Shown here: one piece after another, positions 39,192 through 57,663 of the stretch
Numbering within the stretch: position 1 is the stretch's first letter
Layout: every line of letters starts with the position of its first letter
Assembly (NCBI RefSeq): GCF_003201285.1
Contig: NZ_QICS01000005.1
Location: 1-64,000, forward strand
DNA: 64,000 bases
Direction: 5' to 3'
DNA from: Lachnotalea glycerini
GTDB lineage: Bacteria > Bacillota > Clostridia > Lachnospirales > Lachnospiraceae
The notes under the pieces: generated by a model
What the model saw: only the letters and a program-made list of their open reading frames with translations
What the model was told of the DNA's origin: nothing
Database searches by the model: none
Made by a program: the position numbers and the translations under genes

Positions 39192-40343
39192 TTAATGATT
39201 CATTATTTTGTTTAGCACATAGTTAGCTAATCTGTTTCCCAGTGGTTCCACGAATCTGGTTACTATTGTTGCACAAATCAAAACCAAAGGTACTGTCAGT
39301 ACAAAGTCAAGCAGCATAATTAAATTGTAATCTATACTTCCATTCATTCGCACTAAAAACCACGAAGAAAATGTGGCAATAATTGGAAAGTGAACCAGAT
39401 AAATTCCAAAGCTGTATTTACCTAATAACTGTAATACCCTGACATTAAAAACCCGTTGTAAACGTTCACTGTTTAAAAGTACCCAAAATAGCAAAGTTGA
39501 ACCTATCACGTAGAAAATTATAACCATAGGGACTCCAAGATATTGATAAATAGTATGCTCCAAGTTCTCTCCTGCTGCAGGATATGTTGCAAAAAGCATG
39601 CCAACTATCATCGAAAAAAGTAGAATGAATTTATTCTTGCAATATTTCTCTACAAACTTAGAACCATTCTGCATGATATCACATAGAAACATACCAATAA
39701 AAATGCATACATAATCATTGCGTATACATAGTATAATCAGAATTACATATAAAACATCCCTATATTTCCATTTCCCTGTCACATACAAAATTGCATACAC
39801 CATAAGAGATCCCAAAAACTCATATTTTATAATCCACAAAACATTATTGTACATTTTAGCCTGTCCAAAAAAGCAGTCAATCAATGTCTCCTTTAACAAA
39901 GATAAAAGAGTTGGTGTACTTTCATTAAAGGTCATAAACCACTTTGTTGACCCAGAAATCACTGCTGCTGGCCCATTGTGGTAAGCTCCAAGTTTCATAA
40001 GCAAATAGGTAATCACCTCAATAAAAAGAATTGGCACAATCAAACGAAAATACCGCTTAATCGCTCCATTCACCAAATACTTTCTATCTTTGGTCTGAAA
40101 ATATTTAAGACAAATTACATAACCGCATAGTAAAAAGAAAATCCGTACAGCAAGCTTTCCGTTATACAGCACATTAAATGGGGTAGTTGCAATAAAAGCA
40201 TCCAGATTTCCCGGCATGTTAGCCTGCCATATATATGTGCTATATAAAGCATAATAAAATGCATATCCAAAGTGACAGAGAACTACCATGATTGCTGCTG
40301 CTCCTCTTAATCCTTCCAGATATGTTAATCTCTTTTCGCTCAT
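39192..40343 (-). CDS. Membrane acyltransferase, OafA/YrhL-like
   Basis: A 383-aa acyltransferase-3 protein. RLTYLEGLRGAAAIMVVLCH has the RG-motif and histidine; IFFLLCGYVICLKYF follows. About ten membrane segments, no SGNH domain, so it is the membrane-only type. It starts right after the GT-C gene (no gap) and probably works on the same glycan. It differs clearly from the neighbouring acyltransferase, so the two are unlikely to be recent duplicates. Confidence 0.9.
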   Translation of the reverse strand: MSEKRLTYLEGLRGAAAIMVVLCHFGYAFYYALYSTYIWQANMPGNLDAFIATTPFNVLYNGKLAVRIFFLLCGYVICLKYFQTKDRKYLVNGAIKRYFRLIVPILFIEVITYLLMKLGAYHNGPAAVISGSTKWFMTFNESTPTLLSLLKETLIDCFFGQAKMYNNVLWIIKYEFLGSLMVYAILYVTGKWKYRDVLYVILIILCIRNDYVCIFIGMFLCDIMQNGSKFVEKYCKNKFILLFSMIVGMLFATYPAAGENLEHTIYQYLGVPMVIIFYVIGSTLLFWVLLNSERLQRVFNVRVLQLLGKYSFGIYLVHFPIIATFSSWFLVRMNGSIDYNLIMLLDFVLTVPLVLICATIVTRFVEPLGNRLANYVLNKIMNH

Positions 40344-42768
<2,425 letters not shown>

Positions 42769-42769
42769 T

Positions 42770-43171
42770 CTACTTTCCTTTATCCTTTTTCATATGATTC
42801 TGAATTGAATAGTCAGTATCATAGCGTGTTTGCTTTTCCCGGTTTAGTTTCTCATCAATTGCCATCTTTTGCGCAAGAGCATTTAGCTTATCCTCTAGTT
42901 GAGAATGCTCAATTGTTTGCATAAATGCCTTGATCAACAAAATAAAAATAATTACTAAAAATACAAAATTAACAGGCGCCTGCATTCCAATGATATTGGT
43001 CGGAATTGTTACCAGAACAGGAAAAATACTGATTAAAATCAAAAGGAACGACAATATAATCCAAAAAATAGCATATTCAATCTGCAATTTGGAGTATCTA
43101 ATTTTCCTTACAATATATAGCGTCGTCATTAATGAAGCAAGTATCAATATAATTCTAAATGCAAGTGACAT
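42770..43171 (-). CDS. DUF2304 family membrane protein
   Basis: A 133-aa protein with three hydrophobic segments (about 4-22, 32-52, 66-88) and a charged, helical tail (EHSQLEDKLNALAQKMAIDE). The motif IRYSKLQIEYAIFWIILSFL matches DUF2304. Members typically sit beside Dpm1-like GT2 genes, as here (23 nt downstream). A partner or lipid-sugar flipping role is plausible but unproved. Confidence 0.85.
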   Translation of the reverse strand: MSLAFRIILILASLMTTLYIVRKIRYSKLQIEYAIFWIILSFLLILISIFPVLVTIPTNIIGMQAPVNFVFLVIIFILLIKAFMQTIEHSQLEDKLNALAQKMAIDEKLNREKQTRYDTDYSIQNHMKKDKGK

Positions 43172-43194: not shown

Positions 43195-43881
43195 CTATTT
43201 TCTCTTACGAAAGCTTTGAATAAACAGTATTGAGATAAGCATTCTTAGCATATAAAGCATGGAACGGCTGAAATTCAGGTAACTTTCCCCTTCCTGGCGT
43301 TCATCCATTTCTACCTGCACCTCTGAAATAGTAGCCCCTTGCTTAATGAGGTAAGAAATGGTATCCGGCTCCGGACCATAATTCATATTCAAAGCAAACT
43401 CTTGAATCATTTCTTTATTAAGCATTCTCATACCCGAAGTTGGATCCTTAATTGCCTTACCTGTTGTAAGCTTCATGGCTAAAGATATCATGTTACTCCC
43501 AAGCATTCTTAGAGAAAGCGGTTTTTTCTTACTAACAAACCGTGAGCCAATCACAATATCATAGCCCTTTTCTATTTCCATTAATATTTTATCGATATAC
43601 TCTGTTTTATGCTGTCCATCAGCATCAAATTGAATCGCATAATCATATCCCTTAATATAAGCGTATTTTAAACCTGTTTGAAAGGCACCAGCAAGACCTA
43701 AATTAACTGGAAGATTAATCAGCTCAAAACCATGCTCCAAGCATACCAAAGCAGTGTTGTCCTTTGAACCGTCATTTACCACAACATAATCATACTGACT
43801 ATAATCCTTCTTTATTTCCTCCACAACACGTACAATATTCATTTCTTCATTATAAGCTGGAATAATAATAAGTTTCTTCAT
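43195..43881 (-). CDS. Dpm1-like glycosyltransferase family 2
   Basis: A 228-aa GT2 related to dolichyl/undecaprenyl-phosphate sugar synthases. IIPAYNEEMNIVRVVEEIKK, VVNDGSKDNTALVC, DADGQHKTEYIDKIL and GSRFVSKK are hallmark motifs; KDPTSGMRMLNKEM is typical of the Dpm1 branch. The C-terminus has a hydrophobic stretch (MLYMLRMLISILFIQSF), probably a membrane contact. ATG 43881 follows GGAG; the frame to 43974 adds unrelated residues. It likely makes the lipid-linked donor for the GT-C genes downstream. Confidence 0.9.
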   Translation of the reverse strand: MKKLIIIPAYNEEMNIVRVVEEIKKDYSQYDYVVVNDGSKDNTALVCLEHGFELINLPVNLGLAGAFQTGLKYAYIKGYDYAIQFDADGQHKTEYIDKILMEIEKGYDIVIGSRFVSKKKPLSLRMLGSNMISLAMKLTTGKAIKDPTSGMRMLNKEMIQEFALNMNYGPEPDTISYLIKQGATISEVQVEMDERQEGESYLNFSRSMLYMLRMLISILFIQSFRKRK

Positions 43882-43980
43882 AAATTCTCCTGTATTGTAT
43901 CTATGATAATCATGCTTCATATGTACTACTTTAATTATCCCGTATATAGTAGCATTTATTTTCCATTTTTGCAATTAAGC

Positions 43981-44724
43981 TTATCTTACAAATTGCAAAA
44001 GTACTTTAAACGTTCGGCAGCAATCTGTAAACCAAGCAAACTTAATTTTATTTTCCTTTAGTGCCATATGCCCTTCCTTTAACGAGTTCAAATAGGCCTT
44101 TAATCCATTTGTACTGGTTCCTCCGTGAGACATTTTAATTAAAATCTCCGGAATATAGGATAGCCTCACCTGCTTATCTTTTAAAATTCGAACCATATAT
44201 TCATAATCCGCGGAAACCTTGTAATACGGCTTATAAACACCAAATTTCTCATACACTTCTTTTTTCAGGTACAATGTTGGATGACCCGGCATCCATCCAA
44301 AACGTATATTTCCCTGTCCCTGTTTCCAGGTTCGAACCACTCTTTCCCCATCCATATACAGCAAATCTGCATGGACTCCATCTGTTTTTTCTTTCTCAAT
44401 GATATGTACCATTTGAGAAATTACTGTTTTTTTTGTAAATTCATCAAAGCAGCAGCCTATGATATCTCCCTCAGATAGTTTGATCCCCTTATTAATAGCG
44501 TCAAAGATTCCCTGATCTTTTTCTGACATCCACTTTATTTTTCCCACGGATTCCTTTTCGGCCAGCTTCAGATATTCAACGGTTCCATCCACGGAACCTC
44601 CATCCACAATAATATGTTCTATATTTTCATAGTCTTGTTGTTTTACTAACGTAATAATTCTCTTTAAATTATCTAGATCATTATAGGTTGTAGTGATAAC
44701 CGATACTTTCGGGTTACTTTTCAT
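43981..44724 (-). CDS. Glycosyltransferase family 2, WcaA-like
   Basis: A 247-aa soluble GT2: VSVITTTYNDLDNLKRIITL, HIIVDGGSVDGTVEYL, the QGIFDAINKGIKLSEGDIIG block and HPTLYLKKEVYEKFG. These motifs occur in colanic-acid and O-antigen enzymes. ATG 44724 has AGGA 8 nt upstream and overlaps the GT4 stop by 11 nt; ATG 44739 is an alternative. The usual acidic DxD is replaced by CCFDEF, so the metal site may differ. Confidence 0.88.
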   Translation of the reverse strand: MKSNPKVSVITTTYNDLDNLKRIITLVKQQDYENIEHIIVDGGSVDGTVEYLKLAEKESVGKIKWMSEKDQGIFDAINKGIKLSEGDIIGCCFDEFTKKTVISQMVHIIEKEKTDGVHADLLYMDGERVVRTWKQGQGNIRFGWMPGHPTLYLKKEVYEKFGVYKPYYKVSADYEYMVRILKDKQVRLSYIPEILIKMSHGGTSTNGLKAYLNSLKEGHMALKENKIKFAWFTDCCRTFKVLLQFVR

Positions 44725-45931
44725 ATCTGTTTTCCTCATAAACTTTCTGATATAAATTCATGTATTCTTCAAATCTATCCTTTTTATCATACTGTTTTGC
44801 TTTCTCCACACATTTTCTATATTTATTTTGATGTGTGCAGATAAATTCAATTGCTTCTCTTAGCAGATTGATATCCCCCTTTGGCACCACCTTGCCACAT
44901 TCCTCATCAACCGATTCTACACTTCCACCTGTTGCAAATGTTACAACGGGTGTATTGCAGGCTAAGGCCTCTAAATTGGTGGTTGGAAAATTGTCTTCAA
45001 GGGTTGCATTTACATAAACATTGGCAAGGGAATAAAGCTGAGCTAGTTCATTTACATTCTGCGTTCTTGTAATTCCTATAATCTTAGAAGAAATTGCTTT
45101 TTTTTGCTTTTCACTTAATCCTACCAGTATAATCTGATATTTTGCTGACAGCCTATCTGCCAATTGTTCAAAATACGTAAGTCCCTTTCTTGGTTCCCAC
45201 ATATTGGCAACACCAAGAACGATATACTGATCCATTTTTGCGTATTGTCTGCTCAGTTCACCCTTTACCGGCTTAAACCGTTCTAAATCTATGCCATTAT
45301 AGATTACTTGAACTGGATAATTCTTTAAAAAAGACTGCTTTACATAATCCCTGAGCCATTTACTCGGTGTTACTATAGTCAGAAGATTTAATCCGTTAAA
45401 TATCTCTTTCTTTCTCTTATAATTATAAACGCAATTATCATGTAATAAACCATATGGGTATGCACTTTTAAACTGTTCGCAGTCATGGCACCCTGTTTTC
45501 CACTTGTCACACCCTACATAATCAAAGTAAGCACAATGCCCGGTAAAGCTCCAGCAATCATGAAGAGTCCAAACCACAGGCTTGTTCATTCTCTTTAAAA
45601 AAGCAAAAAACAATTCAATATTTAGGTAAAATCCGTGAATGTTATGCAAATGAATGATGTCCGGCTGATATTTTTCAATTTCTTTTATTAATTTTTTTGT
45701 GCATTCCACAGAAGCAAAACCATTGGCTCCCGTTATAAACTGATAGAGCACATGGCTGTAAAAATCCATCTTTGTGTTTACCTTGACTGTTTGAATATGC
45801 TTTGGGGCACTTCCTCTGCCATAAGCAATTAAACATTCACTTCCCTTTTCTTCTATCACCTGATACAAGTCAAGAGCAATTCGACCGACACTTCCCGTAT
45901 CGCAGACTGTATTTACCTGAACCACTTTCAC
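44714..45931 (-). CDS. Glycosyltransferase family 4
   Basis: GT-B-fold retaining transferase (405 aa). The N-terminal domain shows VNTVCDTGSVGRIALDLYQV and HLHNIHGFYLN. It contains the cysteine-rich block TGHCAYFDYVGCDKWKTGCH, seen in WcaC/WcaL-like enzymes and possibly metal-binding. The C-terminal domain has VTPSKWL, VANMWEPRKGL and EDNFPTTNLEALACNTPVVT with the conserved E-x7-E-like site. First gene after fkp on the strand (113 nt), start of the tightly packed GT run. Confidence 0.9.
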   Translation of the reverse strand: MKVVQVNTVCDTGSVGRIALDLYQVIEEKGSECLIAYGRGSAPKHIQTVKVNTKMDFYSHVLYQFITGANGFASVECTKKLIKEIEKYQPDIIHLHNIHGFYLNIELFFAFLKRMNKPVVWTLHDCWSFTGHCAYFDYVGCDKWKTGCHDCEQFKSAYPYGLLHDNCVYNYKRKKEIFNGLNLLTIVTPSKWLRDYVKQSFLKNYPVQVIYNGIDLERFKPVKGELSRQYAKMDQYIVLGVANMWEPRKGLTYFEQLADRLSAKYQIILVGLSEKQKKAISSKIIGITRTQNVNELAQLYSLANVYVNATLEDNFPTTNLEALACNTPVVTFATGGSVESVDEECGKVVPKGDINLLREAIEFICTHQNKYRKCVEKAKQYDKKDRFEEYMNLYQKVYEENRYEK

Positions 45932-46043: not shown

Positions 46044-49000
46044 TTATACCAACTCACAATCCCAGACATCTACTCCACTGTCTTGAAATACCGTACGGAT
46101 TCTTTGTCTTAAATCCTCTTTCGAGTATCCCTTTTTCAAAATAACCTGCAAAAATCCTCCGCCTCCAGCACCACAAATCATTTTACCTGCAATCATATCC
46201 TGACAGCTTAAAAATATTTGATCAATACAAGTGTTGGTACAACCTGCATCCAGACGCTTGGATAATTCCCAATGTTCATTTAGCAGTTTGGTAAATGCAT
46301 CAATATTTCCTTTTTCCAATTCGAATTTCATCATAACAGCGACTCTTTGAATCTCATATAATACCTCGATGGAGGTTTCATCTGAGCCTATATACTTTCC
46401 AACAACTTCTCTTAACAGATTTCTTGCAAGTCTTCTCTGCCCCGTATAAATTAACGCCATTCTCTCTTGCAATTCTTCAAGTACTTTTTCTTCTAAATGA
46501 ATATGCTCTGCATGAATATCCTGTATTATTCCAGGCTTTGTGGTAATCAGCTTGATTCCGCCTGTAAGACCTCCAACCTGGTCTTGCCAGCCTCCGCCCG
46601 TACTCATAATCTGTTCCATGTAAAGCACTTTTGTATACAGCTCATTCTCCGTTAACTCTGTCCCCAAAAATTCTGCCAGCCCTTTGATACAGGCTCCTGC
46701 AAGAATACTGCTAGTTCCAAGTCCTGACCCTCTTGGTATCCCAATTACCTTAGTTGCTAAATAAAAGCCACCACCAAGTTTAGTTAATATACTATCTAAT
46801 TCTGCTTTATCCTTTCTAGGAATGATTGCACTTGCAATCAATGCCGCCTTTTGTAAAGCAAAGGCATCAAAGGGATCGTTACAGTTTTGCAATTCACAAA
46901 CAGAAGTAAATTCCTGATAGGCTCCAGAATCAGTACTGGCAAGAATAATACAAGGCTTATCTATTTTCCTAATGGTAACCGTAACCGGATTTATCCCATT
47001 TAGTTTAATTGCGCTATTTAAAACAGTTCCGCCATGCTCGGTGCAATAGGGTGGGGTGTCGGACCAACCTCCTCCCCAGTTAATACGTGCAGGCAGCTCT
47101 ATCTGAACAAACTCCTTTTGAATAGAACTATGTTCCTCATCGGTCAGTTTATCTGCCATGGCATCACATATTGTATCACAAATGGCTTGAAAACATTCCG
47201 ATTCTAATTCCTCTTCCTCTTGACCTGTCAGTATTTTAGACAGATAGTAATAGATTCGCATCCTTGTACTTAATTTACTTTTGTTGGCAATCGAAAGTAA
47301 ACTTTCTTTCATATTCGCAGACAGTCCCACCTGACCAAATACCGCGGCTGCTTTCTTGATATCTTGCCTGCTTTCAATCAAATGGATAAATTGCTGAATT
47401 CTGATTTTTTGGTCTAGCTGCCTTTGCCAGATAATATTGCTCATTACATCAGCTTGATTAAAGCTCTCAAACAAACTGTAACGTTCACACGCCAAATACT
47501 CCTTTGAATAGTTTTCACCCTTACAGCCCATCTCATACAACCTTAATGCCCAATCAAGTGCTTCCTCCATTGTGTTACAAACCGGATATAATTTGGCAAA
47601 CCATATATTGTGCTCCATGTCATCCCACAAATCCTCCGGTTTTAACTTTCCACGCTTTAGAAATTCGCTCAGACTAAGTGTCATAAAATCAGCGTTCTCT
47701 TCTAATGTTCCCTTTGGATTGTCATTCGTGGCGTAAATTCTTACCACATATCTCTTATCCATTAACTGCAAGCCATGAAGAGTAATCCCTTCCGGTATTA
47801 TTCTATTTTCTATTGACACATTTGAGATCACACAGTTGCTTTGAACCTTAGAATTCCCCAAAATATAGCTGTCCTCTATATAGCACTTAGGAGATAGTTT
47901 TGAATCTTCACTAAGATATGCGTTATTGCAGGCATAAGAAAGCATTCTCACATCATTTGTTATAACCTTACTATTCCAATCCAGGAATTCGTAATTACTA
48001 ACCTCTTCTACCATAAGCTTTAAAAGTTCTCTGGTCGTTCCAAAATGTATAAATTGAGCCGGTGATACACTTAAAAGTTTCAATTTGTACTGGCTTAACA
48101 CATCCCATATCTGACTTCTGCACTCTATTAATTCCTCGCAAAGACTTCCCTCTGCCTTTTCCTTGTAGTACTGTTCTTTGGTTGCATTAGCTGCCAAAGG
48201 AAACAAAAAGTCACCATAAAAGCTGATTCTTGCTTTATCATTTACAAACTGACTAAATTTATCTGTATTCAGCTCTCCATTTATACTGATCAGTGAAAAA
48301 AGAGATTGTAAAAGATTACTGTCTAGTATAATCGCTCCTGTATCCAGATCTACATTTGCATGAGAATTGACCGCTCCAATCTTAATGAGCTGCTCAACAG
48401 ACTGCTTATGAAGAAATTTTACAACATTTCCCTCGTCGTCACTTAAAAAAACGCCATGATTTTTTCCAGTTTCTACATTTTCCTTAATTGAAATAGCTGC
48501 CGCACCTTCAAACTGAAAATCAATTTGTAAGGAATTAAACAACAATAATACATCTCCTGATAAAACAAGCATTCCATCCTTGATTCTAGAGGGAATACCT
48601 GACATAGAAATGATCAATTCATCAAATAAAGTAGATCGGTTACCGTTTGGAAGTTGTCGTGGTACCGGCGAAAACAGCTTACCACATGCAGAATACTGCG
48701 GTACTCTTTTACTGTCACCTCCCGAATGAATCACAAGAATTCTTTTGTCCTGAAAGCAATCCTTTGTATCGCTAATTTCTTTGATATATTTCATCACATT
48801 GAATGTAGCACCACCTGATCCAACTCTTTTTCCATCCGGGTCGGGTAATACTGCATAATGAGTTGATGACGGCAGCAACCCTTGCTTTAAACGGCTTTCG
48901 ATCTGGATGCGATATGCATCGGCTTGTTCTTCATTGGATGCTGTTAAAATAACATAATCCCATTTTATAAAATACTTCTTCGTCAAAGACTTTTCATAGT

Positions 49001-49061
49001 CTGTCCAAGCATCTTTATAGCTTTGACGTAAAAATAAATTTTTAATCTTCAAAGTGTTCAT
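46044..49061 (-). CDS. fkp: Bifunctional L-fucokinase / GDP-L-fucose pyrophosphorylase
   Basis: A 1005-aa two-domain enzyme of the FKP/FKGP type that salvages free L-fucose: the kinase makes fucose-1-phosphate and the pyrophosphorylase converts it with GTP to GDP-L-fucose. The N-terminal transferase domain (about 65-560) has GSGGATF (81-87) and IHSGGDSKRVPQYSACGK (111-128). A left-handed-helix-like segment lies at about 395-440. The GHMP kinase domain has PARINWGGGWSDTPP (657), PRGSGLGTSS (776-785) and GAGGGGF (964-970). AGGAG lies before the ATG. No GDP-mannose dehydratase or fucose synthase was seen, so GDP-fucose here depends on salvage. A heptose-type GHMP role is less likely given the N-terminal domain. 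Confidence 0.88.
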   Translation of the reverse strand: MNTLKIKNLFLRQSYKDAWTDYEKSLTKKYFIKWDYVILTASNEEQADAYRIQIESRLKQGLLPSSTHYAVLPDPDGKRVGSGGATFNVMKYIKEISDTKDCFQDKRILVIHSGGDSKRVPQYSACGKLFSPVPRQLPNGNRSTLFDELIISMSGIPSRIKDGMLVLSGDVLLLFNSLQIDFQFEGAAAISIKENVETGKNHGVFLSDDEGNVVKFLHKQSVEQLIKIGAVNSHANVDLDTGAIILDSNLLQSLFSLISINGELNTDKFSQFVNDKARISFYGDFLFPLAANATKEQYYKEKAEGSLCEELIECRSQIWDVLSQYKLKLLSVSPAQFIHFGTTRELLKLMVEEVSNYEFLDWNSKVITNDVRMLSYACNNAYLSEDSKLSPKCYIEDSYILGNSKVQSNCVISNVSIENRIIPEGITLHGLQLMDKRYVVRIYATNDNPKGTLEENADFMTLSLSEFLKRGKLKPEDLWDDMEHNIWFAKLYPVCNTMEEALDWALRLYEMGCKGENYSKEYLACERYSLFESFNQADVMSNIIWQRQLDQKIRIQQFIHLIESRQDIKKAAAVFGQVGLSANMKESLLSIANKSKLSTRMRIYYYLSKILTGQEEEELESECFQAICDTICDAMADKLTDEEHSSIQKEFVQIELPARINWGGGWSDTPPYCTEHGGTVLNSAIKLNGINPVTVTIRKIDKPCIILASTDSGAYQEFTSVCELQNCNDPFDAFALQKAALIASAIIPRKDKAELDSILTKLGGGFYLATKVIGIPRGSGLGTSSILAGACIKGLAEFLGTELTENELYTKVLYMEQIMSTGGGWQDQVGGLTGGIKLITTKPGIIQDIHAEHIHLEEKVLEELQERMALIYTGQRRLARNLLREVVGKYIGSDETSIEVLYEIQRVAVMMKFELEKGNIDAFTKLLNEHWELSKRLDAGCTNTCIDQIFLSCQDMIAGKMICGAGGGGFLQVILKKGYSKEDLRQRIRTVFQDSGVDVWDCELV

Positions 49062-49220
49062 TTTTTCTCCTCTTGCATGCTTTTACACACGCTAGGAAGC
49101 GTATCACATGAATTCGCTCCTGCAATATTTATTTATAACAAAGTGCTTCACTAATTTACCACGTTGCTATGATAATGTATTTCAAATAGAATAAAATAAA
49201 AAAATACAGCCCTGCTCAAT

Positions 49221-49250
49221 TTGCATAAATCTATCTTCCTATGATATAAT
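49221..49250 (+). promoter_or_regulatory. Promoter of the fucosyltransferase-like gene
   Basis: TTGCAT and TATAAT with an 18-bp spacer, about 98 bp before the start codon. The leader has TAGATA / TATCTA and CAGGT-AAAT-ACCTG (49305-49318) hairpins; the second is followed by TTTTAATTTATTT and could act as a weak attenuator. Confidence 0.65.
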
Positions 49251-49347
49251 ACACCTAGCCTTAGATAGATACTAAAATATCTATACTGGCTATAGAATAG
49301 GAAGCAGGTAAATACCTGTTTTAATTTATTTGAAAGCAGGACACACT

Positions 49348-50124
49348 ATGATAATAATACAACCTTCTGGCGGTTTGTGCAATAGAATTAGAGTAATAAA
49401 TTCTGCATACGAATTAGCAAAGAAGCGTAACGACAATCTTACTGTCTTATGGCTGAATAACGCTGAGCTTAACTGTCCGTTTGAATCTTTGTTTCAGTCA
49501 GTATCAGAAATCAAAATTATTAACATTTACTCTAATTTAAATCTTCGAAAGCTCTTTTTGCAATTTAGCGCTAATCAGCGTTTCGACAATGCAATGATAG
49601 AAGCTAATAAAAAGAACGGAGTATTAAACGAAAATTTTTATACTTCTCTTAAAAAAAATGTTTTTATATCCACTTGGGAGCACTTCTACCCATCCAGTGA
49701 CTATCATTTCTTTCAGCCAGCCAATGAAATACAGGCCAGAATTGATACCATAACCAAAGACTTAGGAAACAACAGTGTTGGTGTGCATATACGACGAACC
49801 GATCACACCTGGGCCATTGAGAGCAGTAAAACAAACGGTTTTGTAACAGCTATTGAGCAGGAATTAGCGGTAAATCCAGATGCAAAGTTCTTTGTGGCAA
49901 CAGATGATATTACAGAAGAGAATATGCTTCGAGAAAGATTTCCTGCTCAAATTTTTTCCAATCAGAATAAGACTTTATCGCGAAATAGCATTGCAGGAAT
50001 GCACGATGCTTTAATTGATTTAATGTGTCTTGCCAGTACAACCAAAATATTCGGAAGCTATTTCAGCTCCTTTACCGATATCGCTGCTGATATAAATCAT
50101 ATTGAGAAGATAGTAATTAAATAG
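49348..50124 (+). CDS. Fucosyltransferase-superfamily protein (HxRRTD type)
   Basis: A 258-aa protein with SGGLCNRIRVINSAYELAKK near the N-terminus and VGVHIRRTDH (145-153 region), the motif that binds GDP-fucose in NodZ/FUT8/protein-O-fucosyltransferase relatives. A C-terminal SYFSSFTDIAA segment matches the conserved Ser/Phe region of that fold. No signal peptide. ATG 49348 has AGGA upstream; a TTG at 49330 lies in front of it. It is the only plus-strand gene in the glycan locus, divergent from fkp. Linkage specificity cannot be told. Confidence 0.75.
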   Translation: MIIIQPSGGLCNRIRVINSAYELAKKRNDNLTVLWLNNAELNCPFESLFQSVSEIKIINIYSNLNLRKLFLQFSANQRFDNAMIEANKKNGVLNENFYTSLKKNVFISTWEHFYPSSDYHFFQPANEIQARIDTITKDLGNNSVGVHIRRTDHTWAIESSKTNGFVTAIEQELAVNPDAKFFVATDDITEENMLRERFPAQIFSNQNKTLSRNSIAGMHDALIDLMCLASTTKIFGSYFSSFTDIAADINHIEKIVIK

Positions 50125-50191: not shown

Positions 50192-51232
50192 TCATCCTCT
50201 TAGCTTAAAAAATACAAAGGTAATCAAAAAGCAACAGCGATACAGTTTATACCGAATCAGATTAATGTATATTTTTTCTGACATAGAAAGCTTTGGCATA
50301 TCGTAGCTCTCAATCGCTAGTCTTACCTCTGGCTTTTGAAATATCTTTTTTAGGTTCCTGATTACTTGCCTAAAGCCAGACTTATAATTTTTCATAATTT
50401 CTCCTTTAATGCCAAGTATCGTAAGACACAGAAAATCATTGGTAATCTGTGTAGAGAAATCATATACATTTTTTTGTATTGAAATATTAAGAAGCTGATT
50501 CATAGTTTCTGCTATCTTTCCAACATAATCAGGATCGTGTTTTCCCGTCATAGACTTTTGATTAATCCAGTAATGATAGGGAAAATAATTATCGATCATA
50601 CTCACCCGCTTTGCATCGCAAAGCACAGGAAATGTAAGCTGTAAGTCCTCTCCTATTGATACCAAATCGCTGCAATATTTGATATTTTCAAGAATAATCT
50701 GCCTTTTATACAATTTCGTTACTCTGGCAGGCTGTATCGTTCTTCCAAAGAAACTTCCATCACTTAAAAATGTTGGATAAATTTCTTTTACGATATCCGC
50801 TCGCTCATAGACCTTTCCTGACAGTTTAGAACTCTCTGTTTTTGTCTTTGTCAAACCATCCTCAAATTCATAAGTGAGTCCGCATATGGTTAAATCTGAA
50901 TCCGTTTCCTTTGCTTTCTCATAAAGGGTGGTAAACATATCCATATCAATCCAGTCATCACTATCCACAAATCCAACAAATTCTCCCGATGCTTTCAGAA
51001 CTCCGGCTTTCCATGCCGATGTCAGTCCGCCGTTTTCCTTATGAATGACCTGAATGCGAGAATCCGTTTTGGCATACTCATCACATATCTTTCCGGAAGT
51101 ATCAGTTGCTCCATCGTCTACCAGAATAATTTCAATGTCTTTCATTGTTTGATTTTGAATGCTTTGTACACATCGTTCTAAATATTTCTCCACGTTATAC
51201 ACCGGTACAACGATACTTACTTTCGGACTCAT
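50192..51232 (-). CDS. Glycosyltransferase family 2
   Basis: A 346-aa GT2: VSIVVPVYNVEKYLERCVQS, ILVDDGATDTSGKICDEYAK, KENGGLTSAWKAGVLKASGE and the DSDDW metal site (about 94-98). The catalytic-side residues look intact. It has a C-terminal hydrophobic tail (FLITFVFF) that may touch the membrane. It is the last of three successive GT2 genes, 75 nt after the previous stop, so an extracellular-glycan chain role is likely. Donor unknown. Confidence 0.87.
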   Translation of the reverse strand: MSPKVSIVVPVYNVEKYLERCVQSIQNQTMKDIEIILVDDGATDTSGKICDEYAKTDSRIQVIHKENGGLTSAWKAGVLKASGEFVGFVDSDDWIDMDMFTTLYEKAKETDSDLTICGLTYEFEDGLTKTKTESSKLSGKVYERADIVKEIYPTFLSDGSFFGRTIQPARVTKLYKRQIILENIKYCSDLVSIGEDLQLTFPVLCDAKRVSMIDNYFPYHYWINQKSMTGKHDPDYVGKIAETMNQLLNISIQKNVYDFSTQITNDFLCLTILGIKGEIMKNYKSGFRQVIRNLKKIFQKPEVRLAIESYDMPKLSMSEKIYINLIRYKLYRCCFLITFVFFKLRG

Positions 51233-51307
51233 ATAACTCTCCTATCTACCATATTTTCATATACACGTTTAAGAGGATATTCGCGATCCGCTTCGCTACT
51301 TGTTCAA

Positions 51308-52315
51308 TTATTCCTTGTCGTAATGCTCCATTACTTTTTCCTTTAACACTGGAGCCGAGCAGGACTGTAACAACTTTTGATAAATCATAGGACATCTATA
51401 AAATAAAGTATAGCCAATTCTTGTCTTCATCGGGAATGTTCCATATTGTCTGTTTCTTCTTGCTGCATCTCTTACCTTTTCCCTTAACATTTGCTGTTCT
51501 TTTTTCGAATCTGGCAGACCATTCTTGCATTGAAAAAACAAATCAATAATACCGTCAGCATAGGATCTGATTGCAATTGGAAGAATCTCGTTTAACCCCT
51601 TTTCCTCTAAAAAGTTAAGCCGCTGCTCCACTGACCAGGCCCAATCCAGGCGGTTTCGATTGAATTTTTTTCTTGTAATACTCTCGCCCCCCACAAAATA
51701 ACCATACAAAAACCAGTCTACAAACACAGCCTGTTTTGCGGCGTAATACAATCGATGTGTTGTTGCTTCATCCTCATGAATACGCCCATTTGGATATCGT
51801 ACCTGGTCAAATAAGTCTTTCTTATAAATCTTGTTCCAAGCAACTACAAAAAATGCTCCATCTGGAGAATACATTTTCTCAATCATCTGAACTCCAGTAT
51901 ATACATAGCTTTCACCTGCTTTGTGACTTTGCGTTAAATAGTCTCCCTTGACATATTCATATTTACACATGGCAATATCACTGTTCGACTTTTTAATTGC
52001 CTGATAGAGAATTTGAATAAAATCCATTGCTAAAAAATCATCCGAATCCACAAATGCAATATACTCTCCTCTTGCAAGGTCAATCCCTGCATTTCTGGCA
52101 CCCGAAAGACCTTTATTCTTTTGGTGAATGACCTTAATTCGCTCATCTCTTTGGCTATATTCTTCGCATATTTCAGGACAACCATCCGGTGATTCATCAT
52201 CCACCAAGATAATCTCCAAATCGGAATAGCTTTGATTAATAATGGAATCTACGCATCTTCTGATATACTGTTCTACTTTATATACCGGTACAATGACACT
52301 GATGAGTTCATTCAT
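51308..52315 (-). CDS. Glycosyltransferase family 2
   Basis: A 335-aa GT2 with ISVIVPVYKVEQYIRRCVDS, LVDDESPDGCPEICEEYSQR, KNKGLSGARNAGIDLARGEY and the DSDDF site. EDEATTHRLYYAAKQAVFVD is the catalytic-base region typical of CpsJ/WcaA-like enzymes. ATG 52315 has AAGGA 8 nt upstream; the longer frame to 52378 lacks homology. It lies 69 nt after the GT2 gene upstream. Confidence 0.88.
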   Translation of the reverse strand: MNELISVIVPVYKVEQYIRRCVDSIINQSYSDLEIILVDDESPDGCPEICEEYSQRDERIKVIHQKNKGLSGARNAGIDLARGEYIAFVDSDDFLAMDFIQILYQAIKKSNSDIAMCKYEYVKGDYLTQSHKAGESYVYTGVQMIEKMYSPDGAFFVVAWNKIYKKDLFDQVRYPNGRIHEDEATTHRLYYAAKQAVFVDWFLYGYFVGGESITRKKFNRNRLDWAWSVEQRLNFLEEKGLNEILPIAIRSYADGIIDLFFQCKNGLPDSKKEQQMLREKVRDAARRNRQYGTFPMKTRIGYTLFYRCPMIYQKLLQSCSAPVLKEKVMEHYDKE

Positions 52316-52384
52316 CGCTATCATCCTTTCACTTATATCATTTTTATCTTTTACTCTTATGATGCTCTTATAAAACACAAGACT

Positions 52385-53419
52385 TTAGCTCTTAGTCCCC
52401 CGAAGCAGATTCAGACACCACTTTCTAATATAAATAAGCAAGTAAACGATATACTTTCTCTTTCTCTTAAAAAAGAAATTAATCAATCTATAATCAATCT
52501 GTAAACCTTCTATATTCTGATTCGCATTTTGAATGTAGGAATCTTTCATATATTTCTCAATTAAATCAAGCTTTTGATCTCTGGTTATCGTCTTATCATA
52601 AGCCATTCCCTCAATTTCATCCAAAAACTCCAGTAGCAAACGTTTATATATTATATGATTACCCACTTGAATTTTTCGGTTATACTCTTCTTTATCGGCT
52701 TCTTTCAAAAGTAAAGAATAAAATTCTTTCACCGCTTCACAGATTCGTACTGCAATCTGATATTTATCCGCTCTCTTCTTAGAGGATAACGTATCCTGCC
52801 CATTTTTCTGGATGTAGTAATAAAGCGGTTCATCAAGTATCACGATGCTTTCTACTCCTTTCATATATTCCAGATTAAAAAGTAAATCCTCTCCCAAGCT
52901 TAAACTCGCATCAAATCTGTTTTTGATTAATTCTCTCAGAAATAACTTATTCCAAGGCATGTTTAAAAACCCAGCTTCATATAACTTTAAGAATTCTTCT
53001 GAACTTTCTTTCAAAATTATATGGTTTCTTTTTGCTGCTTTTACAATATCACGTTGTAAAAATAAATGGTGATATCCACAGACAGCCATTTGCGCACCTG
53101 TGTTTTCCACATTTCTAAGAAGTGTTTCACACATATCCTCAGAAATGTAATCATCACTGTCAACAAATTGAATGTATTCTCCTTTGGCATGTTGAATACC
53201 TGTATTTCTTGCTCTGGATACACCTTCATTTTCCTTTAATATCACCTTGACACGAGAGTCCTTTTTCTCATACTCTTTTCCTATATCTATGGATGTATCA
53301 GTAGGTCCATCAATAACAAGTAAAATTTCAAGTTCTGAATAGGTCTGATGAATCAGGCTTTCCAAACACCTTTGCAATGTTTTCTCACTATTATATACAG
53401 GCACGATAATACTAATCAT
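52385..53419 (-). CDS. Glycosyltransferase family 2
   Basis: A 344-aa GT2: MISIIVPVYNSEKTLQRCLE, LLVIDGPTDTSIDIGKEYEK, KENEGVSRARNTGIQHAKGE and DSDDY. The C-terminal half (from about 200) is helical and basic, ending near RKRKYIVYLLIYIRKW, which may bind the membrane. ATG 53419 has AGGAG upstream and overlaps the acyltransferase stop by 8 nt; a frame to 53443 lacks homology. Confidence 0.87.
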   Translation of the reverse strand: MISIIVPVYNSEKTLQRCLESLIHQTYSELEILLVIDGPTDTSIDIGKEYEKKDSRVKVILKENEGVSRARNTGIQHAKGEYIQFVDSDDYISEDMCETLLRNVENTGAQMAVCGYHHLFLQRDIVKAAKRNHIILKESSEEFLKLYEAGFLNMPWNKLFLRELIKNRFDASLSLGEDLLFNLEYMKGVESIVILDEPLYYYIQKNGQDTLSSKKRADKYQIAVRICEAVKEFYSLLLKEADKEEYNRKIQVGNHIIYKRLLLEFLDEIEGMAYDKTITRDQKLDLIEKYMKDSYIQNANQNIEGLQIDYRLINFFFKRKRKYIVYLLIYIRKWCLNLLRGTKS

Positions 53420-53972
53420 TTCTCTTCTCCTGACAATACACATTCTTCTTTTTACATATCGTTTCTCTCTTCTGATAATAAAGTGAGTCCTCCAAAACTA
53501 TCCCTTTTACCACGCTGCCTGCGGCAATAACACAGTTATCCCCTATCTGGCTTCCTTTTAGGATAACACAATTTGCACCAATCCATACATCATTTCCAAT
53601 CACTACTTTTTCCTTAATAAAGCTGCTTAGAGACTTTCGATAATCGTGGTCGTGATCTACTATGACTACATTATTTGCTATCTGGCATCCCGAACCAATA
53701 GAAATGCCCGCCAAGCAAGTAATGCTTACATTACTGTTTAGAAAACATTTGTCTCCAATGCTTAAAGTACCCTCTTCTGCTCTTACTGTCACATTTGTTC
53801 GGGTTACCATTTCTTTTCCAATTGATACATTTGCTTTTGGTGAAATACGAAGAACAAATCCTTTATCAAACGCCTGAATCCAAGTAATATTTAATTTTCT
53901 TCCATATCGAATTTTCCAAAATATTATCTTTGGCAAGGTAAACATAGCTCTTTTTGCAAGCTCAAGCTGCAT
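53412..53972 (-). CDS. Left-handed beta-helix O-acetyltransferase (WbbJ/CapG-like)
   Basis: A 186-aa hexapeptide-repeat acyltransferase. Repeats such as ISIGSGCQIANNVVIVDHDH and VVIGNDVWIGANCVILKGSQ, IGDNCVIAAGSVV form the beta-helix, and the DHDHDYR run supplies the active-site histidine. Uses acetyl-CoA. ATG 53972 is preceded by GGAGG; the frame to 53987 is possible. It overlaps the following GT2 gene by 8 nt, so it probably modifies a sugar in this glycan. Confidence 0.9.
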   Translation of the reverse strand: MQLELAKRAMFTLPKIIFWKIRYGRKLNITWIQAFDKGFVLRISPKANVSIGKEMVTRTNVTVRAEEGTLSIGDKCFLNSNVSITCLAGISIGSGCQIANNVVIVDHDHDYRKSLSSFIKEKVVIGNDVWIGANCVILKGSQIGDNCVIAAGSVVKGIVLEDSLYYQKRETICKKKNVYCQEKRND

Positions 53973-54032
53973 TACAAACACCTCCAATGTATTACTTTAT
54001 ACGCTTCAATCATTCCTTGTATTTCATTAGCT

Positions 54033-55556
54033 TTATGCTCTTCCTAATACATTCTTAATTTTATTTCTTATCATTTCACGTTCAACTTTTGTTAATATTA
54101 TAAAATAATTTGCAAACACTGATACGACTCCAGCCGGAATTCCAACCAACAGCAGACTTGCATAACTGTCAATTTCATGAAATTGCTTAGAAATAAATGC
54201 AATGACAAGAATACAGCCAATCGACAAAAAGCCAAGCCCGATATCACTATAAAAACGATACCATTTTACTCCCAATGCTTTTGCTGCATAGAGTGGTGTG
54301 AAAGTAAGATTACGCAGCAAACCAATGATGGTACTGACTCCTGCTACTGCATAGATACCAAGGTTCGTATTTTTAAGAAGAACAAACACAATAATAGTTG
54401 TTAGGACTCCAGATAAAAGCATGACAAAAGCATTTTCTTTTACTTTTTTTGTGATAATAAATACATGGTAAAGAACTTGTATACTCATACTAACATAAAG
54501 AGTTCCTACCGTAAGTATTGTTAATTGATATAGTTCTATGGCATCCTGAGTTGGCTGCCATAGCGGATAAAATTCCATGCTATAAGCGGTAAGAAATGCC
54601 AATGGAATACTTAGCAAAAATATGAGCATTCGATTGCAACTTTTAATTACCTGAATCAGTTCTTCTGTATTTCCTTTTGCATAGGCTATTGTAATTTGAG
54701 GATTAAAGATTCCAATTACATTTCCCATAAAATTTGTAACAGTGGATGGTAATATCTTTGCTATTGTTAAAACTCCAGCTGCATCAGCAGAAATAAAAAT
54801 ATTGGCAATTACTACATCTATCTGTTCTAAAAGCGCTTGTCCAAGTCTTGTCACAGAGTTCCAGAGTCCGAGAGATACCAATTCCCATATCTTTCCCAAA
54901 TCAAAATACTTTTTATCTACTTTAATGCAAGGAAGTAATTGCTTGGTAAACTTACGATTAGCAAAGGCTAAGAAAAGTGTACACACTATTGAAGCAAAAC
55001 CGATATACCATAAGTATGGTCTAAAAAACACATATGCTACTGCTAAGATAATTGCACGTATTATCTCAGTTTGAATGGTTTTAATCGCCAATAAATCCAA
55101 TCGGTCCGTAGCATAGGTAGCAACACTATAAATTGATGTAATAATACTGATGAAAAAATTAATAAAAATAAGAACAAATAATATCTTAACATCGCAAACT
55201 AATTCAGGCCCTATATTAAGAATATTGTCTAAAAATATTACTAAAATCACAGATGGGAGCAGCAATATCGCGCTCACTATAATATTCGCATAAAATACGG
55301 ACGAAAAATATTTATTGGCATCTTTATAATTATCCTGATGAATGTTGATAGTAATAAACCTACTCGCCATTGTATTTAAAGCAGACACCAGTATTTGCGC
55401 ATAGGATACAAAATCGCTTGACATCTTTACATAACTAATTCCTGCTTTTCCTACACGAGCTACTATGTATGGACTTAAAACAAAGTTAATCCCTATTGTT
55501 ACAAAAATGGATATCAATTGTGCTGACATATTTATTATTAATCTTTTTTTATTCAT
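54033..55556 (-). CDS. Polysaccharide flippase, Wzx/MATE-like (MOP superfamily)
   Basis: A 507-aa protein with about 12-14 membrane segments: RLIINMSAQLISIFVTIGIN near the N-terminus, GLWNSVTRLGQALLEQIDVV in the middle and IIRNKIKNVLGRA at the end. Pattern of the Wzx/RfbX branch that flips undecaprenyl-diphosphate oligosaccharides. Its gene lies between DUF2142 and the LbH acetyltransferase. It points to a Wzy-type export route, although a Wzy polymerase was not recognised. Confidence 0.85.
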   Translation of the reverse strand: MNKKRLIINMSAQLISIFVTIGINFVLSPYIVARVGKAGISYVKMSSDFVSYAQILVSALNTMASRFITINIHQDNYKDANKYFSSVFYANIIVSAILLLPSVILVIFLDNILNIGPELVCDVKILFVLIFINFFISIITSIYSVATYATDRLDLLAIKTIQTEIIRAIILAVAYVFFRPYLWYIGFASIVCTLFLAFANRKFTKQLLPCIKVDKKYFDLGKIWELVSLGLWNSVTRLGQALLEQIDVVIANIFISADAAGVLTIAKILPSTVTNFMGNVIGIFNPQITIAYAKGNTEELIQVIKSCNRMLIFLLSIPLAFLTAYSMEFYPLWQPTQDAIELYQLTILTVGTLYVSMSIQVLYHVFIITKKVKENAFVMLLSGVLTTIIVFVLLKNTNLGIYAVAGVSTIIGLLRNLTFTPLYAAKALGVKWYRFYSDIGLGFLSIGCILVIAFISKQFHEIDSYASLLLVGIPAGVVSVFANYFIILTKVEREMIRNKIKNVLGRA

Positions 55557-55614: not shown

Positions 55615-57663
55615 TTAGAAACAAAGTGGCTTTAAGAAATACACATATGTTCCGTAAAGATTGATGAATATAATAATTGAAAAAATGATTTTATGAAACA
55701 TTTCAGTTGAAATATTTACTTTAAATTTATTGTTTTTGAATACAAACATAAGTGGCAGGATAAACGGAATATAGTACCTGCCTTGTACCCCATTAATATA
55801 ATTCTCTCCAACACCTGTGTAGCTGATATATAGACCTGTCCATACAAGACATGCCACACCAAAAGCCATAACTGCTAATAACAGCTTCCATTTTCTTTCT
55901 AATATATGCTTTCTGTCTGCCTCTGTTTGAAACAAAGATATTCCTAATATTAACACACTAGTAAGTGCTGCAAATATCTTTGGAAATCGACCTAAATACG
56001 CATATAACAGCCAGGTAGAAGTACCAAGTAAATAATCAAAAGCTGAATTTTTAAGGCTTCTAAGCAAAATCTTTGTATATATCAGCGGATTCTGGAAAAT
56101 ATATTTTATTTGGCCAACAAAGCTTGTATTAGCAACACGCTTATCACCAAAATATTGGATATTCGTCTGAATTGCATCATAACCGGAGCTTGCTGTAATT
56201 GGCGGCGATTTAATCGTATAGAGAAGCATCAAAACGATAGCAACAATTCCAACTTTAAAGAAAGCCGTCTTAAATTTGTCATCAAACTTTTCTTTTGGTA
56301 AAAAGCATAATAACAGCATCATTACAATATAAATCGTCTTTGACCATGTACCTACAACAAAGCACAGTATCATAGCAAGTGCAATGTACCACTTTATTTT
56401 TTTATCCTTATCAATTATTTCATTGAGCCATAGGATAAAACCTAAAAATACCAATGCTGTAATAAATGCATCATACGCATAAACCGATGCCAAAAACAGC
56501 GGTGTCGGCAAAAGACCGATAGCAGCAATATATATCTTTCCAAACTTAGCAATCCGAATGGCCAATGCCATCATCAATGTATAGAATAATAGATTCCCAA
56601 ACTTACCAAGCATATATGCCCAGGAAAACGGAAGATCGCAAATTCTTGCTAACACAAGCATAATTGACTGCGGCAGATAGGCTCTTACATTATACAAAAC
56701 AAATCTTTGCTGATATTTTAAGTCCGCCTTGCTATAATCATTTCTCTCCTGCAAATAGTCAGCTACAATTCCCTTTTCTTCTATGCTATCATAGTTTGGT
56801 ACTACTAAACCTTTCATTTGAATGGCGGCTTCTGTATACTGAATCATCTGCCCAAAAGAAGCCCTATATGCACTTTCGTAGTGAACCTGCTCGTCCCAGC
56901 TTCTTTCATTCGTTCCGTCAAATAAAATCATAAAGCTGCCAAATAGCAGTGATAATATAATAAAAGCAAATTCAAGACGTTTACTGAATAAACTTTTATT
57001 TAAAATTAAAAATGCAATTGCAAGCATACCACCAATTAAATATAGCATTCTGCAATAATTAATGTGAAACTCGTTGCTAATTGCAACTGTAACATTCTTA
57101 CCTGTAAATTCCTGACTTGTTGACAAGCTGATTATAATTTGGTCTGCCTGTCCATTTACATTGGTAACACTTTCACCTAGTCGGGCATTTAATGAATCGT
57201 AAACACTCTTACCATCCTGAATACCACCTAGCATTCGTGTAATTCCATAGCCCAAATCAGAATCCGTTGGATATGTCACATGAAGCTTCTTGATATAGTA
57301 ATCTGTTCCAATATCGAGAGTTATGGTCGTCTGATAGACTCTTCTGGCCAGTACACCATCCTGTTCTACCAAAGATTCATCTACTTGCTCTACATATTCC
57401 TCGTTATTTAACTCAGCTACAATTTTGTCATTTTGCTTTTGAAGCTCAATCTCGGCTATTTTATCCTCCGTCAGAGGTACTAATTCTTCATCATTTTCAA
57501 TTTTTATCGTGTCATTTTGATGCGATAAATCAAAAGTAATTGAATCATTTGCATGAAAAATAGCACTTTGATTATAGCCAAAGCACTCAATTAAGAAAGC
57601 TATTAATATAATAGCTGTTACAACAATACCATTTCTCTTCCAATTCGTATTCCTTCTATTCAT
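55615..57663 (-). CDS. DUF2142 large membrane protein
   Basis: A 682-aa polytopic protein. It has an N-terminal segment (about 13-30) and a ~160-residue extracytoplasmic domain (about 35-200, including DSLVEQDGVLARRVYQTTIT). Then come about ten segments with NERSWDEQVHYESAYRASFG (near 253) and, near the C-terminus, NYINGVQGRYYIPFILPLMF, the two DUF2142 signatures. These resemble GT-C enzymes (acidic first loop; aromatic patch). It overlaps the small membrane gene upstream by 8 nt. Function unproved. Confidence 0.82.
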   Translation of the reverse strand: MNRRNTNWKRNGIVVTAIILIAFLIECFGYNQSAIFHANDSITFDLSHQNDTIKIENDEELVPLTEDKIAEIELQKQNDKIVAELNNEEYVEQVDESLVEQDGVLARRVYQTTITLDIGTDYYIKKLHVTYPTDSDLGYGITRMLGGIQDGKSVYDSLNARLGESVTNVNGQADQIIISLSTSQEFTGKNVTVAISNEFHINYCRMLYLIGGMLAIAFLILNKSLFSKRLEFAFIILSLLFGSFMILFDGTNERSWDEQVHYESAYRASFGQMIQYTEAAIQMKGLVVPNYDSIEEKGIVADYLQERNDYSKADLKYQQRFVLYNVRAYLPQSIMLVLARICDLPFSWAYMLGKFGNLLFYTLMMALAIRIAKFGKIYIAAIGLLPTPLFLASVYAYDAFITALVFLGFILWLNEIIDKDKKIKWYIALAMILCFVVGTWSKTIYIVMMLLLCFLPKEKFDDKFKTAFFKVGIVAIVLMLLYTIKSPPITASSGYDAIQTNIQYFGDKRVANTSFVGQIKYIFQNPLIYTKILLRSLKNSAFDYLLGTSTWLLYAYLGRFPKIFAALTSVLILGISLFQTEADRKHILERKWKLLLAVMAFGVACLVWTGLYISYTGVGENYINGVQGRYYIPFILPLMFVFKNNKFKVNISTEMFHKIIFSIIIFINLYGTYVYFLKPLCF

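Follow-up and report, generated by a model that had tools for sequence, protein, structure and literature searches.

The DNA analysed here, called the window throughout, is the first 64,000 nucleotides (forward strand) of contig NZ_QICS01000005.1 of Lachnotalea glycerini (Lachnospiraceae, Lachnospirales; assembly GCF_003201285.1). At positions 46044-50124 it contains a gene for FKP, the bifunctional L-fucokinase/GDP-fucose pyrophosphorylase, and, divergently from it, a gene for a predicted GDP-fucosyltransferase of 258 residues. It is the divergent FKP/fucosyltransferase pair, rather than the presence of an FKP in a Gram-positive, that sets the locus apart, and the pair is made up of the following features.

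46044..49061, minus strand: FKP, bifunctional L-fucokinase/GDP-fucose pyrophosphorylase, 1005 residues (PF07959 and GHMP kinase matches; NF009948; ligand residues)
46134..47108, minus strand: L-fucokinase (GHMP) domain of FKP, residues ~652-976 (extent from kinase-only matches; residue table)
47571..48761, minus strand: GDP-fucose pyrophosphorylase domain of FKP (PF07959, 1.5e-97)
49062..49347, no strand: divergent intergenic region between FKP and fucosyltransferase (sequence; divergent layout in 11 loci)
49348..50124, plus strand: predicted NodZ/FUT8/POFUT-like GDP-fucosyltransferase, 258 residues (AlphaFold2 (AF2) model; structure comparison; weak profile matches)

FKP and its divergently encoded partner

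The 1005-residue open reading frame (ORF) shows a Pfam match to PF07959 (324.5 bits, residues 101-497) followed in the same chain by a GHMP kinase domain (GHMP_kinases_N, residues 774-835), which is the domain order of FKP. The NCBIfam FKP model NF009948 (PRK13412) covers residues 27-989 with 506.2 bits, below its cut-off of 721, and the closest solved structures are those of Bacteroides fragilis FKP (BfFKP; 5yys/9iit, 1.8e-77). Of 30 ligand or catalytic positions of BfFKP named in excerpts of PMC11982464, 28 are identical in the window protein and in two Bacteroidota FKPs taken from plasmid records. These include the fucose-contacting R592, W599, D601, T602, Q761, and D762 and the pyrophosphorylase positions D31, R80, K89, D136, H168, K187, and H272, with R79 replaced by Lys and Q186 by His (BfFKP numbering throughout). 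In the numbering of the window protein, the kinase domain holds R659, W666, D668, T669, E816, Q826, and D827. By architecture and residues, rather than by the naming rule of NF009948, the protein classifies as an FKP, and both domains, the coverage by NF009948 and the residue table bear out the full-length enzyme proposed in the initial annotation of this DNA. A heptose kinase assignment was rejected, the top kinase-only model being HddA (D-glycero-D-manno-heptose-7-phosphate kinase) with 97.7 bits against an NCBIfam cut-off of 600. Across the whole genome PF07959 identifies this single FKP and one weak second match of 21 bits (in control genomes, 5 of 14 gave matches and 1 was above cut-off). 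The enzyme resembles BfFKP in its two domains, its 28 of 30 ligand and catalytic residues and its position among glycan genes, but it shares only 26-28% identity over 88% of its length with the two Bacteroidota FKPs, and the system differs from that of B. fragilis in belonging to a Gram-positive and in having a fixed divergent fucosyltransferase of predicted NodZ-like fold.

The partner gene likely starts at ATG 49348, giving 258 residues: GAAAGCAGG sits before this codon, five of ten relatives have listed ORFs that start at the equivalent codon, and an earlier start at 49330, 18 bases upstream, is a TTG. The HxRR(x)D donor motif of the GDP-fucosyltransferase superfamily is present as H147-I-R149-R150-T-D152, is invariant in all 11 aligned members, window included, and aligns with HVRRTD of FUT8, as does the second donor motif, ATDD, with its FUT8 counterpart. 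For the 258-residue protein alone the Pfam scan lists NodZ only, at 17.7-17.9 bits against a cut-off of 28.3, and does not list FUT8; among the 11 aligned members, matches at E <=0.01 are to O-FucT in nine, FUT8 in four, and NodZ in three. Run against the PDB, the 11-member profile matches FUT8 (1.3e-4) and NodZ (1.1e-3).

An AF2 model built from 11 sequences has a predicted local distance difference test score (pLDDT) of 90.3 and a predicted template modelling score (pTM) of 0.88. Residues 152-159, after the RR motif, are its sole stretch of at least three residues with pLDDT below 50; excerpts of PMC8433944 describe a loop at the equivalent place in FUT8 that is disordered without GDP. Comparison of the model by Foldseek and VIA-align 2 placed NodZ first (Z 19.7, root mean square deviation 2.8, 230 aligned), followed by plant FUT1 (Z 17.9), FUT8 (17.7), POFUT2 (16.2), and POFUT1 (16.0). 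The 43 top entries listed are all fucosyltransferases (Z 19.7-14.7), and the next family listed is represented by a GT9 protein at Z 10.9, indicating that the predicted fold is that of the GDP-fucosyltransferases (GT23/37/65/68), with other GT-B enzymes less similar. The initial annotation was therefore right about an HxRRTD fucosyltransferase-like neighbour, which is a real gene with a predicted fucosyltransferase fold. NodZ and FUT8, both GT23 alpha-1,6-fucosyltransferases, share this predicted fold and both donor motifs, but identity is only 19-20% with NodZ and 14-16% with FUT8, which is a far longer protein. POFUT1/2 (GT65/GT68) and plant FUT1 (GT37; families as numbered in excerpts of PMC7014118) likewise share the predicted superfamily fold (Z 14.8-17.9), with 13-16% identity to the window protein of only 258 residues. 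At the positions of FUT8 K369 and of its catalytic base E373 (roles from excerpts of PMC8433944) the window and its sister locus L051 have H153 and I157 and the other nine members Asn and Met, in an alignment that runs through the low-confidence loop of the model. Because neither residue is kept, acceptor and base must differ from those of FUT8; together with the Pfam scores this is also the reason for leaving the protein outside GT23. There is no support for alpha-1,6 core fucosylation of the host type, the FUT8 base being missing. Another fucosyltransferase of a Gram-positive gut bacterium, a GT10 enzyme of Clostridium porci, was shown to be active with GDP-fucose (PMC7738495, in excerpt); it resembles the window enzyme, as predicted, in this respect but belongs to another GT family, and the excerpt mentions no FKP.

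Distribution of the pair and its state in congeners

Among 392 genomes of the order Lachnospirales, source genome included, 18 encode a full FKP (19 places above 260 bits); PF07959 scores above cut-off in 28 genomes, ten of them at 34-42 bits only, and gives any match in 215. Relatives of the window transferase were found in three genomes by single sequence and in nine by profile, six of the nine with E values of only 1e-4 to 5e-8. A scan of genome contigs returned 489 stretches encoding FKP relatives, of which the best 80 were analysed with flanks of up to 10 kb that are often cut by contig ends. The titles of these best 80 of 489 loci refer to Clostridia or to a genus or family of that class, or say simply "bacterium". 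FKP is thus not confined to Bacteroides and plants, from which the initial annotation called it best known, and with 18 of 392 genomes carrying a full one it is not odd in Gram-positives. The rare transfer into the lineage that was to be sought by phylogeny is unsupported, as many clostridial loci carry FKP. Viral contigs yielded one kinase-end fragment; plasmids yielded the two FKPs of Bacteroidota together with ten matches to the kinase part only, all of them weaker.

The partner transferase family occurs in 10 of the 80 loci and in the window, always divergent from and adjoining FKP, with spacers of about 80-290 bp (FKP starts were taken from matches, and some spacers overshoot by ~12 bases). 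A quick maximum likelihood tree of FKP was built from 79 rows, namely 76 loci, the window and the two Bacteroidota sequences as outgroup; L073, L109, L126, and L129, in which no whole FKP ORF was called, were left out, 19 of the tree's 75 inner branches are left open, and four rows are of unusual make-up. All 11 pair-carriers fall into a single 13-row clade (Shimodaira-Hasegawa-like approximate likelihood ratio test 99) in which the other two rows begin at a contig edge; the divergent pair is thus found in 11 of the 11 members whose 5' flank is available. The window FKP lies far from the two Bacteroidota rows, which were set as outgroup and which, being only two, can neither date nor direct a transfer. 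Distances between FKPs correlate with those between transferases (r = 0.97; none of 5000 permutations as high), a result that shared descent alone can also give. An invertible promoter as in Bacteroides was considered for the intergenic region and is not supported: one 17-nt inverted repeat pair (88%; 49180-49196/49319-49335) is present and, read by eye, is not conserved as a pair in L051.

In 11 of the 80 loci (L063, L065, L068, L070, L083, L090, L094, L095, L116, L122, and L128) gmd and fcl stand together near FKP, so that salvage and de novo genes for GDP-fucose occur in a single gene cluster. With one member of each protein group scanned, a member of the manC-like group is seen in 10 of these loci and one of the manA-like group in five. 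A FucU-like gene lies beside FKP in 7 of the 80 loci (one member scanned: RbsD_FucU, 5e-44), and in an Eisenbergiella group (L078, L081, L084, L087, and L089) FKP is near a member of an aldo-keto reductase group and one of a radical SAM/SPASM group (one member each scanned). Genome G347, absent from the list of 215 with a PF07959 match, encodes a transferase relative of 33% identity 5.6 kb from gmd-fcl, in a 14-kb stretch that also has a manC-like gene; between the relative and gmd-fcl it has two acyltransferases and a protein that matches GNT-I weakly (L160:6271-9433).

The genus is represented in the sample by three genomes, the source genome (G000), G001, and G002, which are nearly equidistant (76.5, 74.9, and 76.4% over 26 proteins). 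For comparison of the cluster, 27 window ORFs of at least 100 residues between 33000 and 62500 were taken; two gene-overlapping plus-strand frames match neither congener, leaving 25. G002 has 24 of these, the last one falling outside the stretch compared, plus one extra ORF of 552 residues. G001 also has 24, one of them (133 residues) by tblastn only, and the sole missing one is FKP, of which no trace is found in the 38-kb stretch of G001 (tblastn, E <=1); the only PF07959 match in the whole of G001 scores 20.6 bits. Its fucosyltransferase is retained with 84% identity to that of the window, 98 bases from the GT4 gene on a 3.0-Mb contig (L174/L175, C7:1828844-1830936), and it has a single above-cut-off gmd accompanied by fcl; this gmd is most like the one on contig C7 of the source genome (78% versus 64%). 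G001 has the look of a natural knock-out in which only FKP is gone, and it shows that the transferase is not tied to FKP. With the three congeners almost equidistant, loss of FKP from G001 rather than gain in the others is inferred from other genera, which keep the pair. A named sister species, Candidatus Galacturonibacter soehngenii (Lachnospiraceae, Lachnospirales), came from galacturonate-fed enrichment cultures (PMC7000372, in excerpt).

Supply and proposed use of GDP-fucose

Two gmd genes above cut-off, each adjoined by an fcl-like gene, are encoded in the genome (4.86 Mb in 48 contigs, 97.9% complete); both lie outside the window, and the profile search gave no gmd match on the window's part of contig C5; since gmd matches occur in 14 of 14 control genomes and are above cut-off in 6, only above-cut-off genes were counted. 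The absence of de novo GDP-fucose genes noted in the initial annotation holds for the window and fails for the genome, where gmd and fcl, whose presence had been named as one half of what would speak against its inference, were found as two pairs. Salvage would accordingly supplement de novo GDP-fucose, and fucosylation should not depend on free fucose, though it may rise with it. One of the two pairs, on contig C1 (L017:7367-15995), makes up a second GDP-fucose locus, being accompanied by a manC-like gene and by genes for an epimerase-like protein and a FUT8-like protein of 348 residues, the latter passing the Pfam cut-off (36.1 versus 27.6 bits).

About 11 kb of contig C4 hold genes for an L-fucose isomerase (fucI; 1009 bits, cut-off 850), a response regulator, a histidine kinase, sugar ABC (ATP-binding cassette) proteins, and an L-fucose mutarotase-like protein (128 bits, cut-off 141; RbsD_FucU, which alone cannot separate FucU from ribose pyranase, gave matches in 5 of 14 control genomes, all above cut-off). 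With two GH29 fucosidases also encoded, the genome is plausibly equipped for L-fucose import, and candidate genes for every step, from import through FKP and transferase to the surface glycan, are present. The sugar ABC importer next to fucI would take up free fucose, and FucU would provide the right anomer; FKP would convert imported L-fucose to fucose-1-phosphate and join this to GMP, giving GDP-L-fucose that tops up the de novo pool from the two gmd-fcl pairs. The 258-residue GT-B enzyme would then move fucose onto a glycan built by the surrounding GT2/GT4 genes and exported by the flippase. We consider it likely that salvage and the divergent fucosyltransferase decorate a glycan in this manner, on top of de novo GDP-fucose. 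The fucose-salvage idea of the initial annotation is thereby kept as far as FKP, the transferase-like partner, the glycan-type cluster, and the apparent import genes carry it; dependence of the cell on scavenged fucose is contradicted by the two gmd-fcl pairs and by G001, which keeps its fucosyltransferase in the absence of FKP.

Several points weigh against this interpretation. FKP does not reach the equivalog cut-off of NF009948 (506.2 versus 721), the transferase is below every Pfam cut-off, including those of NodZ and FUT8 that would place it in GT23, it lacks FUT8 K369 and the base E373, and a fold alone demonstrates no function. For the listed NCBIfam sugar models, the importer proteins stay below cut-off. 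Isomerase, mutarotase, and fucosidase matches are present in all three congeners, and because FKP-less G001 shares them, the uptake genes may serve catabolism only. It is improbable, given the structural ranking, that the 258-residue protein is a different GT-B enzyme and FKP serves another transferase: the lack of a Pfam family above cut-off and of the FUT8 base would fit such an enzyme, but Z falls from 19.7 for NodZ to 10.9 only after 43 best entries listed that are all GDP-fucosyltransferases, HxRRTD and ATDD align with FUT8, and a source of GDP-fucose adjoins in the 11 FKP loci and lies near the G347 relative too.

FKP might instead act mainly as a recycler that rescues fucose freed by the cell's own fucosidases from its own or debris glycans, with bulk GDP-fucose made de novo, as the two gmd-fcl pairs, the two GH29 fucosidases, and the retention of the fucosyltransferase by FKP-less G001 would allow. 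We regard this as rather unlikely, since the importer/mutarotase/isomerase locus points to outside fucose and a mere recycler would not need the pair kept in 11 loci, but it overlaps with the salvage interpretation. The natural substrate could also be another sugar with the same ring, D-arabinose or L-galactose, yielding GDP-D-arabinose or GDP-L-galactose for the same transferase; FKPs are described as loose at C5 (PMC11982464, in excerpt), and TxFKP as faster on D-arabinose than on L-fucose (PMC12732313, in excerpt). The FucU-like neighbours in 7 of 80 loci and gmd-fcl in 11 of 80 argue against it, as does G001, which keeps the transferase along with gmd-fcl, genes whose families make GDP-fucose and not GDP-arabinose, and we judge this substrate very improbable.

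Fucosylation of bacterial surfaces by salvage has been described mainly for Bacteroides, in which the surface role of FKP is known; a 2005 study by Coyne is said to have dealt with FKP and surface fucosylation in B. fragilis. Such fucosylation has been stated to secure gut colonisation of mice by Bacteroides (PMC8068183, in excerpt). The bacterium studied here, a Gram-positive whose family lives mostly in the gut, is probably able to put scavenged fucose on its coat in the way of Bacteroides, alongside its own production of activated fucose, and if this is true of the Lachnospiraceae, a major gut family, surface fucose would be a read-out of the environment. The main text of a 2025 study of FKP evolution contains none of Firmicutes, Bacillota, Lachnospir-, Clostridi-, Gram-positive, or Terrabacteria (PMC12732313), and on that ground the clostridial branch appears uncharacterised, although members may sit unnamed in the trees of that study. 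Among the matches listed in the open-access literature, none deals with an FKP from a Gram-positive or with the subfamily of this fucosyltransferase; as far as these go, three things are new: a clostridial FKP branch whose enzymes likely serve a surface glycan, the conservation of the divergent pair, and a congener without FKP. More tentatively, and with considerable doubt, the broad clostridial FKP branch and the short transferase subfamily could be an inherited divergent module that tunes coat fucosylation to free fucose in Gram-positive anaerobes atop de novo supply, in which case loss of just FKP, as in G001, would uncouple the coat from the environment. Three congeners, one of which lacks only FKP from the cluster, make the question directly testable.

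The surrounding glycan-type cluster

The pair is embedded in genes that look like a surface-sugar cluster, and Pfam GT2/GT4 matches confirm the dense glycosyltransferase (GT) run that had been described around FKP.

39192..43171, minus strand: 133-residue protein, two related, apparently membrane proteins (403 and 406 residues), and an acyltransferase-3 (ORFs, Pfam)
43195..43974, minus strand: GT2 glycosyltransferase (Pfam)
43981..45931, minus strand: GT4 and GT2 glycosyltransferases, downstream of FKP (Pfam; protein groups c4 and c3)
50192..53443, minus strand: three GT2 glycosyltransferase genes (PF00535)
53412..55556, minus strand: hexapeptide acetyltransferase and Wzx-like polysaccharide flippase (PF00132, PF01943)
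55615..57663, minus strand: DUF2142 membrane protein (PF09913)

Between 24253 and 63656 the fucosyltransferase gene and two shorter gene-overlapping frames are the only plus-strand ORFs of at least 110 residues, all others being on the minus strand. Members of the same GT4 (c4) and GT2 (c3) protein groups directly follow FKP, barring intervening ORFs, in nine of the ten remaining loci with the pair (L051-L054, L056-L059, and L061) and were not seen in L055. Upstream of the glycan cluster are genes matching cdaA, ybbR, and glmM; the extra 552-residue ORF of G002 (L014:4081-5739) lies between glmM and a gene for a 220-residue protein and has no match in the window. The 406-residue protein has no Pfam match at E <=0.01; it and the 403-residue protein, which are related, apparently membrane proteins, are encoded in tandem at 40344-42768 and show cross matches of 46-48% with a corresponding pair in G002.

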